From Polycladidibacter stylochi (GTDB lineage Bacteria > Pseudomonadota > Alphaproteobacteria > Rhizobiales > Stappiaceae): a stretch of 64,000 nucleotides of DNA. Below the pieces are notes generated by a model that saw only the letters and a program-made list of their open reading frames with translations, was not told where the DNA came from and did no database searches. The position numbers and the translations under genes were made by a program. Positions within the stretch are counted from its first letter, which is position 1; each line of letters opens with the position of its first letter. The stretch spans positions 186,001 to 250,000 of the forward strand of contig NZ_LLWE01000025.1 in assembly GCF_001562055.1 (NCBI RefSeq). Direction: 5' to 3'. Of the stretch, positions 50,508 through 61,252 are shown piece after piece.

Positions 50508-52325
50508 TCACACAGTGCGGGTTGCATGTTGCAAAAACGCCAGCTCTACACCCTCTAAATACGGAGCCAAAGCCTTGGCCACTTTACCATGGTAGGTATT
50601 AAGCCAAGCACGTTCTGCCTCGGTCAACATAGCCACGTCCACCAAGGCCAAATCAATCGGCGCAAGTGTCAGCGGCTCAAACCCGAGCATAGCCAGATCA
50701 CCACCGGCTATTTCGCGCGGTTCGGTGACAAGCTCCAGATTTTCAATGCGGATACCATATTCACCGGCCCGATAATAACCCGGTTCATTGGAAAGAATCA
50801 TCCCCGGCTCGAGCGCCACCCGGCTATTGTTTTTCGCAATGCGCTGCGGCCCTTCATGCACACTCAAGTACGAACCAACACCATGGCCGGTACCATGGTC
50901 AAAGTCCAACCCTGCCTGCCAAAGTGCATAGCGGGCCAGCGTATCAAGCTGTGCGCCATTGGTGCCAACAGGAAAACGCGCACAAGCCAGCGCAATGTGA
51001 CCTTTAAGAACCAGCGTAAAGTGCTTTTTGTGCGTTTCGCTCACATCACCCACAGCAAGTGTACGGGTAATATCTGTCGTGCCATCTTCATATTGAGCAC
51101 CAGAATCAATCAGGTACAAATTACCGGCTTCAACAGCAAGATCACTGTCATGGCTAACCCGATAATGGCAAATCGCACCATGCGGACCAAAGCCGGAAAT
51201 ACTGTCGAATGATATATCCTTCAAAACACCGGTTTCCGCACGAAACTGTTCAAGCTTTTGCGCAATACTCACTTCGCTGTGCCCACCTCGCGGCACATTT
51301 CCGGCAAACCAGTTTAAAAACTTCACAAATGCCACACCGTCGCGCACATGCGCCGCTTTAGCACCTGCAATCTCACGAGGGTTTTTAATCGCCTTGGGAA
51401 GCAGTGTCGGCTCTTCACCTTCAAGCACACTGCCACCGTTTAACGCAACCGCGTCATACAGCGCTTGTCCTGCGAGTCCGCAATCAATCATCACGGTCTT
51501 GCGAGTAGCGCCACATTGGCGCAAGCAGGCAACCAGCGCCTCCATTTCATGCAGTTCTGCCAGCTCAGCTAGCGCTTCACGAACAGGACCGCTCAGCTTA
51601 CGCCCATCAATAAACAAATCCGGCTTGCCGGTGCTGTTCAATAGCGCAAAAGACAATGGCAAAGGTGTGTGCGAAACATCGCTACCGCGAATATTGAACA
51701 ACCAAGCGACTGAATCAGGTTGTGTTAATAGCGCTGTATCCGCCCCTTTATCTGCAATAGCCGCCTGCATACGGGCTATTTTATCCGCAGCAGCCTCACC
51801 GGCATATTCTATTGGATGCAATTGCACGGCTCCACAAGGCGCGGCAGGGCGGTCCGCCCAAACGGCATCAATCGGATTAGTCTCAACGCCAACCAATTCC
51901 GCACCAACCTTAGTGCAGGCCTCTTGCAATCCACGCACTTCCTGCACTGTATGCAACATCGGATCAAAACCGAGCTTCATACCCTTCGTTAGCTTGGTGC
52001 AGATGTAGTCGGTAACTGGCTCATTATGTAAATGGCGGTATTCAAAGCAATCACCATCCACCTGCTCACGAACCTGTATGGTGTAACGCCCGTCAACGAA
52101 AATTGCAGCTTCATCACGCAGCACACAAGCTGCACCGGCCGAGCCACTAAAGCCTGTAATCCACTCCAAACGACAATCATTAGGGGGCACATACTCGCCC
52201 TGATGTGCATCAGCCCGTGGAATAAGAAAACCATCAAGACCGCGCTGGCCCAGTTCCTCTCGTAACATCGCCACCCGCGATGGCCCAAGAGCCTTTGTGT
52301 TACTCACATCATATTTTTGAAACAT
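50508..52325 (-). CDS. Aminopeptidase P family protein (M24B, long form)
   Basis: A cytosolic metalloaminopeptidase that removes N-terminal residues before proline. The 605-residue length and triple-domain layout match the long, eukaryote-like XPNPEP1 type common in alphaproteobacteria: two creatinase-like N-terminal domains up to about residue 320, then the catalytic pita-bread fold. Metal ligands: LYLIDSGAQYEDGTTDITR (two Asp), HGTGHGVGSYLSVHEGP (His), LSNEPGYYRAG (Glu) and IRIENLELV (Glu). ATG at 52325 has only a weak ribosome site. Confidence 0.92.
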   Translation of the reverse strand: MFQKYDVSNTKALGPSRVAMLREELGQRGLDGFLIPRADAHQGEYVPPNDCRLEWITGFSGSAGAACVLRDEAAIFVDGRYTIQVREQVDGDCFEYRHLHNEPVTDYICTKLTKGMKLGFDPMLHTVQEVRGLQEACTKVGAELVGVETNPIDAVWADRPAAPCGAVQLHPIEYAGEAAADKIARMQAAIADKGADTALLTQPDSVAWLFNIRGSDVSHTPLPLSFALLNSTGKPDLFIDGRKLSGPVREALAELAELHEMEALVACLRQCGATRKTVMIDCGLAGQALYDAVALNGGSVLEGEEPTLLPKAIKNPREIAGAKAAHVRDGVAFVKFLNWFAGNVPRGGHSEVSIAQKLEQFRAETGVLKDISFDSISGFGPHGAICHYRVSHDSDLAVEAGNLYLIDSGAQYEDGTTDITRTLAVGDVSETHKKHFTLVLKGHIALACARFPVGTNGAQLDTLARYALWQAGLDFDHGTGHGVGSYLSVHEGPQRIAKNNSRVALEPGMILSNEPGYYRAGEYGIRIENLELVTEPREIAGGDLAMLGFEPLTLAPIDLALVDVAMLTEAERAWLNTYHGKVAKALAPYLEGVELAFLQHATRTV

Positions 52326-52680
52326 TTCTTGAGGTTACAAAGCCTCATCCCCCAAAGCAATAAGCTAATCAATCTAGGCACAATAATAGGAGCCATACAG
52401 CAATTCAAAAACAGCTATATATTGCCGGACGCATTAAAATATCATTTCGTCCAGTCCGTATTCTCCCCTAATGTGAATCAAAAGTACCGAAAAAAAGCTT
52501 AGCCATGCAACGATAACCACTCTCAAACCGTTATGTGCAAAATTTAAAACGATTTAAATAACTTAGAATAACTATAATATATTATTTATCATATTGTAAC
52601 TATTGATGTTTTACTAGTATTTTACACTATGCAAAAAACGCATAACTGACATGCGAGATTTCCTCTTTTTTTTTAAAGTT
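52326..52680. other. AT-rich promoter region upstream of DUF1127
   Basis: About 350 bases, increasingly AT-rich to the right, with ACTATAATATATT near 52570. No gene. A CTCTTTTTTTTTTAAA tract (52663-52677) precedes the conserved leader block and has a shorter counterpart upstream of the second DUF1127 gene. Confidence 0.5.
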
Positions 52681-52710
52681 AACAGGCGCATATACCTTCT
52701 TGTCAACACG
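52681..52710 (+). promoter_or_regulatory. Conserved leader block of DUF1127 gene 1
   Basis: A 30-base block, beginning AACAGGCGCATATACC and continuing TTCTTGTC, that recurs upstream of the DUF1127 gene at 61037 with four substitutions and one indel. The element CTTCTTG can pair with the Shine-Dalgarno CAAGGAG at 52760-52766 (one G-U), so it may close the ribosome site. A promoter role is not excluded. Confidence 0.6.
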
Positions 52711-52773
52711 ACGCAAACGAAGCGCCGAAACAAACAAAACAGAAATGAAGCATTAATATCAAGGAGTTAAGTC

Positions 52774-52992
52774 ATGACTATGACTGCTACTGTTACAGAC
52801 TTCGGCCAGATCAAAGACCGCAAACCATCTTTCCTGCGCCGCGCATTTGATTGCATCATTGCCGCACGTCAAGAAAGTGTACAGCGTCAGGTAAATCACT
52901 ACCTTTTGCGTTTGACCGATGAAGAACTGAACGCTGCAGGTTACGACCGCAAAGAGCTTTTAGCTCGCCGTTCAGCACCAGCTGCTTACTAA
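52774..52992 (+). CDS. DUF1127 small protein 1 (CcaF1-like)
   Basis: A 72-residue, basic, YjiS-like protein. The DUF1127 core is FLRRAFDCIIAARQESVQRQ followed by VNHYLLRLTDEELNAAGYDR, and the protein is Arg-rich. AAGGAG lies eight bases before the ATG. In Rhodobacter a DUF1127 protein, CcaF1, acts as an RNA-binding protein and is co-transcribed with the Cuckoo sRNAs that follow it (family knowledge). Here a CCTCCC hairpin array follows within 15 bases of the stop, so the same arrangement is likely. Paralogue at 61037. Confidence 0.92.
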   Translation: MTMTATVTDFGQIKDRKPSFLRRAFDCIIAARQESVQRQVNHYLLRLTDEELNAAGYDRKELLARRSAPAAY

Positions 52993-53006
52993 GTTAAAGC
53001 AGCGCC

Positions 53007-53222
53007 ATGCCTGTTAAGAGCAGGCATCCAGTTTCATAAGGGCTCTAATTTCCTCCCTAGTTGAGCCCTTTGAATAGCCAGAACCGCCCTCCCACGGAAC
53101 TGGCACCAAGACGTAGCCTGCCCTCCCACAGGAAACGTCTTACCAATAAGAGCCTCTGCAATAGGCGCCGGTGAATTCCTCCCACTTCACCATGGCAGCC
53201 TAAGCAGAGGCTTTCTTATTTT
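53007..53222 (+). ncRNA. Cuckoo/CcsR-like array of CCTCCC-loop small RNAs
   Basis: Five consecutive hairpins after the DUF1127 stop. First ATGCCTG/CAGGCAT (53007-53027), no CCTCCC. Then four that expose CCTCCC: AAGGGCTC/GAGCCCTT (53038-53070, loop with TTCCTCCC); GCCAG-AA-CCG/CGG-AA-CTGGC (53077-53104, loop CCCTCCCA); AAGACGT-AG-CCTG/CAGG-AA-ACGTCTT (53108-53141, same loop CCCTCCCA); and an outer AGCCTCTGC/GCAGAGGCT stem (53151-53212) around GGTGAA/TTCACC with TTCCTCCCAC in the loop, ending in TTTCTTATTTT. Exposed CCUCCC is complementary to Shine-Dalgarno sequences. The loops vary in sequence around a fixed core, and stems differ, which argues for selection on the loop. Confidence 0.85.
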
Positions 53223-53282
53223 CAGCCCTTTAGCCGACAGATCACGTAAAACCACTCTCGCCACAATCAACCTCTTGCGCAC

Positions 53283-53339: not shown

Positions 53340-54242
53340 TTACGGCTGCCAGGCTCCGCGCACTAGGGTCAAGGTCAACCAGCCATCAATTTCGCTAGAA
53401 CGCACAAGCCGGAAACCGTGCTGCGCATAGGCCGAAATAATCCGTGGCCCATGCTCTACCCGCAAGCCGGAAAGCACCAGTACCGAGCGGTCATCCATTT
53501 GCGCACAAAACTTTGCCGACATCTGCTCCAAAGGTTTGGCCAGAATATTGGCAACCGCTAAATCAAAAGGGCCATAGGCAGCAAAACGGCGATCATCCAC
53601 ACCAGCAGCTGTAAAGGCCTTGAACAAAGGAGCCACACCGTTTTTCTTGGCGTTATCAATCGCCGCTTCCGTTGCAATTGGATCGATATCGGTTGCCAAA
53701 ATCTCCTGACGGGTCATTTTAGCCAGCGCAATCGCCAACACACCCGTGCCAGTCCCTAAATCCAAAATACGCTCGAAACGATTGCGTTTCAACAGCCGCG
53801 CCAATTCCAGCAAACAGCCCTCGGTAGTACCATGGTGGCCGGTGCCGAATGCCTGCGCCGCTTCAATCTCGATACCGATTTCATGGCTATGCACCGCATC
53901 CCGGTCATGCGCCCCATGCACCACAATCCGCCCGGCACGTACTGGCTTCAGCCCCTCAAGCGATTTGGCCACCCAGTTAATCTCGGGCAGCTCTTCCACC
54001 TCAGCTTCTTCGGGCAACACGCCATCAGCAAACAAATGCCCCGCGCGTTCATTCACCAACGCCCGCGCACTGGCCACATCACTATCAAGCACCAAAATCT
54101 CGGAAATCCAGATTTTACCGTCTTCCGATGCTTCAAAAACAGCAACCGGATATCCTTCCAGCTCAAACAAAAACTCAAGCTTGTTAGATACATCCTTCGC
54201 CTCGGCCTCAAGTGCCGGTACACGAACCCGAATGGTCGCCAT
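53340..54242 (-). CDS. prmA: Ribosomal protein L11 methyltransferase
   Basis: Trimethylates lysines of L11 using S-adenosylmethionine. The 300-residue protein has an N-terminal substrate-recognition domain (VSNKLEFLFELEGYPVAVFE) and a C-terminal Rossmann methyltransferase: EAAQAFGTGHHGTTEGCLLE, ILDLGTGTGVLAIALAKM, DIDPIATEAA and AVANILAKPLEQM. ATG at 54242 is preferred over the frame start at 54296, because GGAG lies six to seven bases upstream and it begins at the conserved MATIRVRV. Convergent with the sRNA array. Confidence 0.94.
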   Translation of the reverse strand: MATIRVRVPALEAEAKDVSNKLEFLFELEGYPVAVFEASEDGKIWISEILVLDSDVASARALVNERAGHLFADGVLPEEAEVEELPEINWVAKSLEGLKPVRAGRIVVHGAHDRDAVHSHEIGIEIEAAQAFGTGHHGTTEGCLLELARLLKRNRFERILDLGTGTGVLAIALAKMTRQEILATDIDPIATEAAIDNAKKNGVAPLFKAFTAAGVDDRRFAAYGPFDLAVANILAKPLEQMSAKFCAQMDDRSVLVLSGLRVEHGPRIISAYAQHGFRLVRSSEIDGWLTLTLVRGAWQP

Positions 54243-54387
54243 AAAATTCTCCATTGCCCATAAAGGCTTATCACGATGTATCGCCGAGTGCAGCATACGT
54301 CATGTTTTTGTTATCTTGCGCAAGCTATACAGCGATCCCACACCGCCCACCAGTAAAAAAGCAGCGTGATCCGAACCGCCAACAGCC

Positions 54388-61036: not shown

Positions 61037-61252
61037 ATGATCCTATCAGCAATGACAACCGAATTCGACTTTGCACCAGCACAAAAAGGCTTTTTTGCTC
61101 GCTTGTTTGATCGCCTCGTAGAAGCCCGTCAAAAAGAAACACAGCTCATGGTTAACCATTACCTCTTGAAGCTGTCTGACGAAGAGCTGAAAGCTGTTGG
61201 CTACGACCGCAAAACACTACAAGCACAAGGCAGCAAACTCAGCATTCTATAA
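61037..61252 (+). CDS. DUF1127 small protein 2
   Basis: A 71-residue YjiS-like protein. The core FFARLFDRLVEARQKETQLM followed by VNHYLLKLSDEELKAVGYDR matches the paralogue at 52774 closely: VNHYLL, DEEL and GYDRK are identical, as are the ARQ and FF/LF positions. AAGGA lies nine bases before the ATG. Unlike the first copy, no CCTCCC hairpin array follows, only a terminator. Expression may be co-regulated with the first copy through the shared leader block. Confidence 0.92.
   Translation: MILSAMTTEFDFAPAQKGFFARLFDRLVEARQKETQLMVNHYLLKLSDEELKAVGYDRKTLQAQGSKLSIL

Follow-up and report, generated by a model that had tools for sequence, protein, structure and literature searches.

The window analyzed here, a 64,000-nucleotide stretch of the genome of Polycladidibacter stylochi, includes an intergenic region bounded by two genes of the minus strand: a divergent M24 peptidase gene, assigned by a domain match and called pepP here (50508–52325), and the convergent prmA gene (53340–54296), which domain and family matches identify as that of ribosomal protein L11 methyltransferase. 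On the plus strand between them, the sequence has a Shine-Dalgarno-like AAGGAG (52761–52766) ahead of a small ORF (52774–52992), whose 72-aa product, P0001, is assigned to an unnamed family by the ORF itself, profile searches and synteny. The ORF is followed, also on the plus strand, by an array of hairpins at 53007–53220 (contig C12 of the window genome, G000). In what follows, Pseudovibrio refers to a genus set of 16 genomes in which the window genome and G013 are included.

The array begins with a plain hairpin that has no CCTCCC (53007–53027; fold and sequence) and continues with four plus-strand hairpins placed by folding: hairpin 1 with the loop UCCUCCCU (53038–53070), hairpins 2 (53077–53104) and 3 (53108–53141), both with the loop CCCUCCCA, and hairpin 4 (53145–53220), a long outer, terminator-like stem in which an inner hairpin with the loop UUCCUCCCAC is nested (53170–53191). 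The MFE of 52993–53225 is -94.9 kcal/mol (z -8.8), and none of 200 shuffled sequences was equally stable. All four copies of CCTCCC that occur within the 216 nt of the array are wholly contained in apical loops of the MFE fold. Among 20,000 dinucleotide shuffles none had four or more copies, 20 had three and the mean was 0.27; in a further control a single loop-borne copy arose in 26 of 1000 shuffles and two in none. The hairpins of the window array are real, and they agree with a preliminary description of this locus, which had reported CCTCCC in the loops of four successive hairpins with unlike stems, the same octamer in two of the loops (hairpins 2 and 3), an extra plain hairpin ahead of them, and a last hairpin ending in a terminator.

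Upstream of the ORF lies a composite element (52630–52654, plus strand) that was recognized from published boxes: TGCA-N6-GCAT, the LsrB box of Sinorhizobium meliloti NfeR1 (excerpts of PMC10746234), overlaps GCAT-N3-TG-N3-T, the VtlR box of Agrobacterium (excerpts of PMC7486931). The exact boxes overlap at 52630–52652; a candidate upstream box of the LsrB/VtlR regulon is hence present in the window. A -10-like stretch at 52688–52694 (plus strand) may function as such, and transcription perhaps starts near 52700, if the layout of NfeR1 is a guide. Counted on both strands of the window, exact LsrB boxes occur 8 times and exact VtlR boxes 14 times, the 52630 site included; a looser composite pattern, composed after the sequences had been seen, has a single match, at 52630–52654. 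A pattern drawn from the 52630 site is found with zero mismatches once in the 3.68 Mb genome, and at 69 places with up to two.

Loop conservation and a second array beside uvrA

The window genome has another array, which follows uvrA and is itself followed by a CobQ-type gene, a neighbor of the array seen only in this genome. A convergent gene that recurs at the majority of uvrA array loci, in Pseudovibrio as in other genera (for example, L044, 1744–2769 oriented), was not seen in the stretch from the window genome, which has the CobQ-type gene instead. Array patterns detected no uvrA-side array in G010, hence the 15 such loci for 16 genomes; at 14 of these 15 the promoter element stands immediately ahead of the array, and PF06568 was matched at none of the 15 examined. 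In other genera, DUF1127 ORFs accompany the arrays at all five loci for which ORFs were listed, and PF06568 was matched by array-locus proteins in all six cases scanned. UvrA is present in the fetched stretch at 9 of the 12 other-genus array loci; L032 and L033 have the downstream gene of the uvrA loci, and L039 shows neither it nor UvrA. Not every match to the array patterns is an array, and L034 and L040, likely chance matches, were excluded from the loop and promoter comparisons. Expanded arrays were seen at L032 (G020), with repeated three-hairpin blocks and two DUF1127 ORFs, and at L060 (G061), with a repeated block.

As judged by local folding, with the best of four window sizes taken, apical loops hold 77 of the 82 clustered CCTCCC copies of Pseudovibrio at pepP-prmA and 60 of the 61 beside uvrA; the copies outside hairpins number 5/82 and 1/61, respectively, and 3/82 in other genera. 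In the consensus fold of the arrays that lack an ORF, base pairing takes in part of the first motif out of five. Kept pairs with two-sided changes amount to 7 of 75 in nine alignable ORF-less arrays and to 4 of 47 in ten alignable uvrA-side arrays, small counts drawn from close relatives. Between species the stems at pepP-prmA vary and CCTCCC stays, which was the outcome that the preliminary description, in naming this test beforehand, had anticipated. These results bear on the view that the hairpins are merely 3'UTR stability elements with a terminator, and that their C-rich loops have no function in trans. The terminator-like last hairpin and the motif-free first one suit such a view, as do the terminator-like hairpins seen by eye 3' of the homologous ORF in other genera; however, free variation of stems around loops that keep CCTCCC, and the persistence of arrays where the ORF is gone, make it very improbable.

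The core of the loops is shorter in Pseudovibrio, as the preliminary description had supposed for the window array. In other genera 63 of 82 clustered copies retain the nine-mer CCTCCTCCC, against 37 of 143 in Pseudovibrio (15/61 beside uvrA, 22/82 at pepP-prmA), a contrast that treats related species as independent; of the eight copies of the window genome, both of its array loci taken together, none retains it. CCUCCUCCC likewise is found in none of the four window loops and in 0/8 over both loci. The narrower idea that the window genome alone had lost the nine-mer was dropped (0/8 vs 37/135 in other Pseudovibrio, p 0.11). The short core could also reflect plain drift of CCUCCUCCC in a genus of lower G+C content, with no change of function, and we give this account an even chance: the G+C content of the window is 48% and the difference just cited is not significant, yet CCTCCC, which is equally exposed, has been retained, and the next base is A in 133 of the 143 copies of Pseudovibrio (62/82 in other genera). 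The comparison shows, for two unlinked arrays, that a core of nine bases can be reduced to six.

Both loci have the promoter element in common. At pepP-prmA the exact LsrB box is present in 10 and the exact VtlR box in 9 of the 16 loci; the corresponding figures for uvrA are 12 and 10 of 15, with 6 of those 10 VtlR boxes lying away from the composite. The looser composite is found at 15/16 pepP-prmA and 14/15 uvrA loci of Pseudovibrio, and is missing from both array loci of G013. The uvrA-side array site has two mismatches to the pattern drawn from the 52630 site. From the start of the composite to the first CCTCCC there are 88 nt in nine of the ten ORF-less pepP-prmA loci and 89 nt in 13 of the 15 uvrA loci. 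Anti-Shine-Dalgarno arrays and two small-protein families are in this way linked to one kind of promoter box.

Probable array gain and ORF loss between pepP and prmA

The ORF that precedes the array had been taken for a DUF1127 gene, an assignment that finds no support: P0001 has no match to PF06568 in Pfam or to DUF1127 in NCBIfam, PF06568 matches none of the 15 proteins made up of P0001 and 14 relatives, and a profile-versus-profile comparison of the family with six true DUF1127 proteins gave only weak similarity (probability 33%, E 4.5e-4, 21 columns). A PF06568 search of the window genome found one other, longer protein, on a different contig. The family itself, with the core ARxxQAxRYVNGYLLSLDDATLAxxGYDR, was matched by an order-wide profile search in 190 of 397 genomes at E 0.01, some of these matches perhaps not being orthologues, and six short relatives lack the second half of the family sequence. 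Across the order this unnamed family was observed between pepP and prmA, often with an LsrB/VtlR-like box upstream. Outside Pseudovibrio, relatives of PrmA and PepP both adjoin the ORF at 23 of the 26 loci with checked neighbors (L005–L031 minus L016); at L008, L022, and L030 only one of the two was seen beside it. A paralogue of P0001, recognized by similarity, is encoded beside a RecN/SMC-type gene (61037–61252, plus strand), and is followed by hairpins without CCTCCC.

In Pseudovibrio the array is present between pepP and prmA in all 16 genomes. Outside it, more than one CCTCCC within 220 nt of 3'UTR was found at none of 42 homologue loci (28 of L106–L134 and 14 of L141–L154), which were chosen by ORF homology and not by synteny; 39 had no copy and three had one. 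L117 and L131, two of these three, belong to one genus, g24, of another family, whose genomes (G053 and G214, respectively) have one CCTCCC or CCTCCTCCC 3' of the homologous ORF; the motif of L131 occupies a clean hairpin loop, and that of L117 is paired otherwise in the local MFE fold. The g24 copies, with the clean loop of G214 above all, are what would be expected had the ancestor of the order already possessed an array or a single hairpin at pepP-prmA, with losses elsewhere instead of a gain in Pseudovibrio, but with multiple copies absent from all 42 outside loci we consider such an origin doubtful. A related element, its pattern also composed post hoc, lies upstream of the homologous ORF at 20 of these 42 outside loci, and the promoter is therefore probably older than the array.

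The history of the ORF has been quite different from that of the array. At the pepP-prmA locus of the 16 Pseudovibrio genomes it is intact in four, shortened in two, and undetected in ten, and a search with P0001 matches the locus ORF only in G000, G011, G012, and G013. The shortened ORF of G007 matches the family profile over positions 2–44 of 72, and that of G004 is, by eye, a still shorter remnant. In a tree built from PrmA and PepP, G010, without the ORF, is the sister of G012, which has it (support 96), G007 with its shortened ORF is the sister of G011 with the ORF (100), and a clade of ten species (100) is without the ORF, apart from the G004 remnant. The outgroups suggest that the ORF is ancestral at pepP-prmA; if it is, these placements require at least three separate decays. 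The ORF is dispensable in the relatives. The array has been kept while the ORF was repeatedly lost, and what counts at the locus hence seems to be the RNA and not the protein. What is new here is that the 3'UTR of a gene for a small protein probably gave rise to an array that then outlived the protein. Two local rearrangements were observed by eye: G010 (L079), which has no ORF, has a tandem duplication of about 420 bp comprising promoter and array, and in G004 three adjacent hairpins resemble local copies with drifting stems.

Known systems and a proposed function

The Cuckoo/CcsR-like layout perceived by the preliminary description, a small ORF followed by tandem hairpins with C-rich anti-Shine-Dalgarno loops and a terminator, is what the locus contains; the covariance search that it had proposed gave a divided answer. 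At gathering level Rfam found nothing on the array; at a relaxed level ar14 (RF02344) was the best match, but with 26.6 bits it fell below the 58.8 cut-off, and four others were chance-like. The ar14 cut-off was reached by six of the seven other-genus array loci scanned (L060 fails) and by none of the 12 Pseudovibrio loci scanned. The same kind of search noted an Atu_C8 sRNA at 22782–22894 of the window (58.9 bits against a threshold of 50), and a TPP riboswitch at 925–1036 on the minus strand.

In the literature, the Cuckoo RNAs and alpha-r14 (NfeR1) have tandem hairpins, C-rich anti-Shine-Dalgarno loops, variable stems, and an LsrB box upstream (PMC10746234); Cuckoo-type RNAs occur with three and four hairpins, and RS0680a has two stem loops with an anti-Shine-Dalgarno motif (PMC3927594). 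Like the Cuckoo RNAs, the window array is a series of neighboring hairpins whose loops are conserved and whose stems vary. It differs from alpha-r14 in that the window genome has CCUCCC only, on four motif hairpins with one plain hairpin added, and scores under the ar14 cut-off, and in that the array sits behind a small-protein ORF between pepP and prmA. It is therefore a Cuckoo-like array that fails the nine-base loop and the ar14 score, yet is made of the same parts, and its tie to the Cuckoo family is the sister uvrA locus: the DUF1127-associated, CCUCCUCCC-bearing uvrA arrays in other genera of the taxonomic family are a sister system whose promoter element is related, with true PF06568 proteins and ar14-grade scores in 6 of 7 loci, whereas the Pseudovibrio uvrA locus has the array without PF06568. 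A class-wide search for three copies of CCTCCTCCC found 0 in 289 genomes, with G000 the only one of its family among the genomes listed, and this says little because the search needs the nine-mer, which the window arrays lack. In a literature search with Pseudovibrio, the name was absent among the matches listed, a statement limited to those matches.

The AbcR RNAs are not known to be hairpin arrays of the window kind. They and the VtlR/LsrB-activated DUF1127 proteins of Brucella and Agrobacterium nonetheless have the same kind of box before small proteins or sRNAs, according to excerpts of PMC7486931 and PMC12595884. CcsR1-4, which are four homologous RNAs, are also akin to the window array. 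In Rhodobacter sphaeroides (CIN1) they are tandem 3'UTR sRNAs that follow a small-protein gene, ccaF1, as described in excerpts of PMC10253847, PMC8307010, and PMC8625941. A DUF1127 gene directly upstream, as in that system, was sought for the window array and not found, P0001 having no PF06568 match; the window ORF is thus not a Pfam DUF1127 member, and it has been lost in most Pseudovibrio. Control of CcsR1-4 is attributed to alternative sigma factors that belong to the RpoE/RpoH network (PMC8307010), in contrast to the LsrB/VtlR-like element found here.

We think it probable that the locus encodes a LysR-controlled array of anti-Shine-Dalgarno sRNAs that developed behind a small-protein ORF, within its 3'UTR, and later outlived the protein. 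The hairpins, loop conservation, promoter element, and ORF history that enter into this explanation are observed; for transcription, processing, regulator, and targets it draws on analogy. Most likely, a single transcription unit would run from the LsrB/VtlR-like promoter through the 72-aa ORF into a 3'UTR with five hairpins, four of which would present CCUCCC as a mimic of the anti-Shine-Dalgarno tail of 16S rRNA. The array would probably be cut from the mRNA, as in Rhodobacter, where CcsR1-4 are released from the ccaF1 3'UTR with RNase E (excerpts of PMC8307010 and PMC8625941). NfeR1, which LsrB activates, has three loops acting redundantly at translation starts (excerpts of PMC10746234), and by analogy the loops of the window array may pair redundantly with GGGAGG-type Shine-Dalgarno sites and so, under stress or nutrient limitation, hold down the translation of many mRNAs. 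The Pseudovibrio array would have arisen within the 3'UTR of a small-protein gene older than itself; most species would then have lost the ORF and retained promoter and array. Against this explanation we count the failure to reach the ar14 score (window and 12/12 Pseudovibrio scanned), the missing CCUCCUCCC, the 5/82 pepP-prmA copies outside loops, the partly paired first motif of the ORF-less arrays, the post hoc composite, and the exact boxes in only 10 and 9 of 16 loci.

A broader proposition, in which our belief and disbelief are evenly balanced, is that in one genus two unlinked mRNAs, the DUF1127 one by uvrA and the unnamed one at pepP-prmA, each became a stand-alone anti-Shine-Dalgarno hairpin RNA: the 3'UTR either had an array already or acquired one, the ORF then decayed (at least three times at pepP-prmA), and the two promoters came to lie at almost equal distances from the first loop (88 and 89 nt). 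If this is true, the pepP-prmA series from intact through shortened to absent ORF would document in nature how an mRNA turns into a noncoding regulator. On the probable explanation given above, the locus offers a traceable example of a bacterial sRNA array that developed in the 3'UTR of its host gene and outlived it, with living intermediates in one genus.

The targets offer a further comparison. In the window genome, GGGAGG-N4..9-ATG occurs 124 times and the reversed pattern 38 times, the latter a crude control and the GGGAGG counts taking in sites inside genes. It has to be asked whether the loops titrate a protein instead of pairing with mRNAs. Several equal loops per RNA would suit a sponge, and in Rhodobacter CcaF1 binds RNA and contributes to the maturation of the CcsR RNAs (PMC10253847), but the conserved core complements GGGAGG, a sequence that in this genome precedes ATG more often than its reverse does, the loops of NfeR1 act by pairing (excerpts of PMC10746234), and the small protein encoded in cis has been lost in most Pseudovibrio; titration is thus an improbable alternative. 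Within the window, GGGAGG start sites at 24721 and 27171 stand ahead of frames that are 192 and 185 aa long, respectively.
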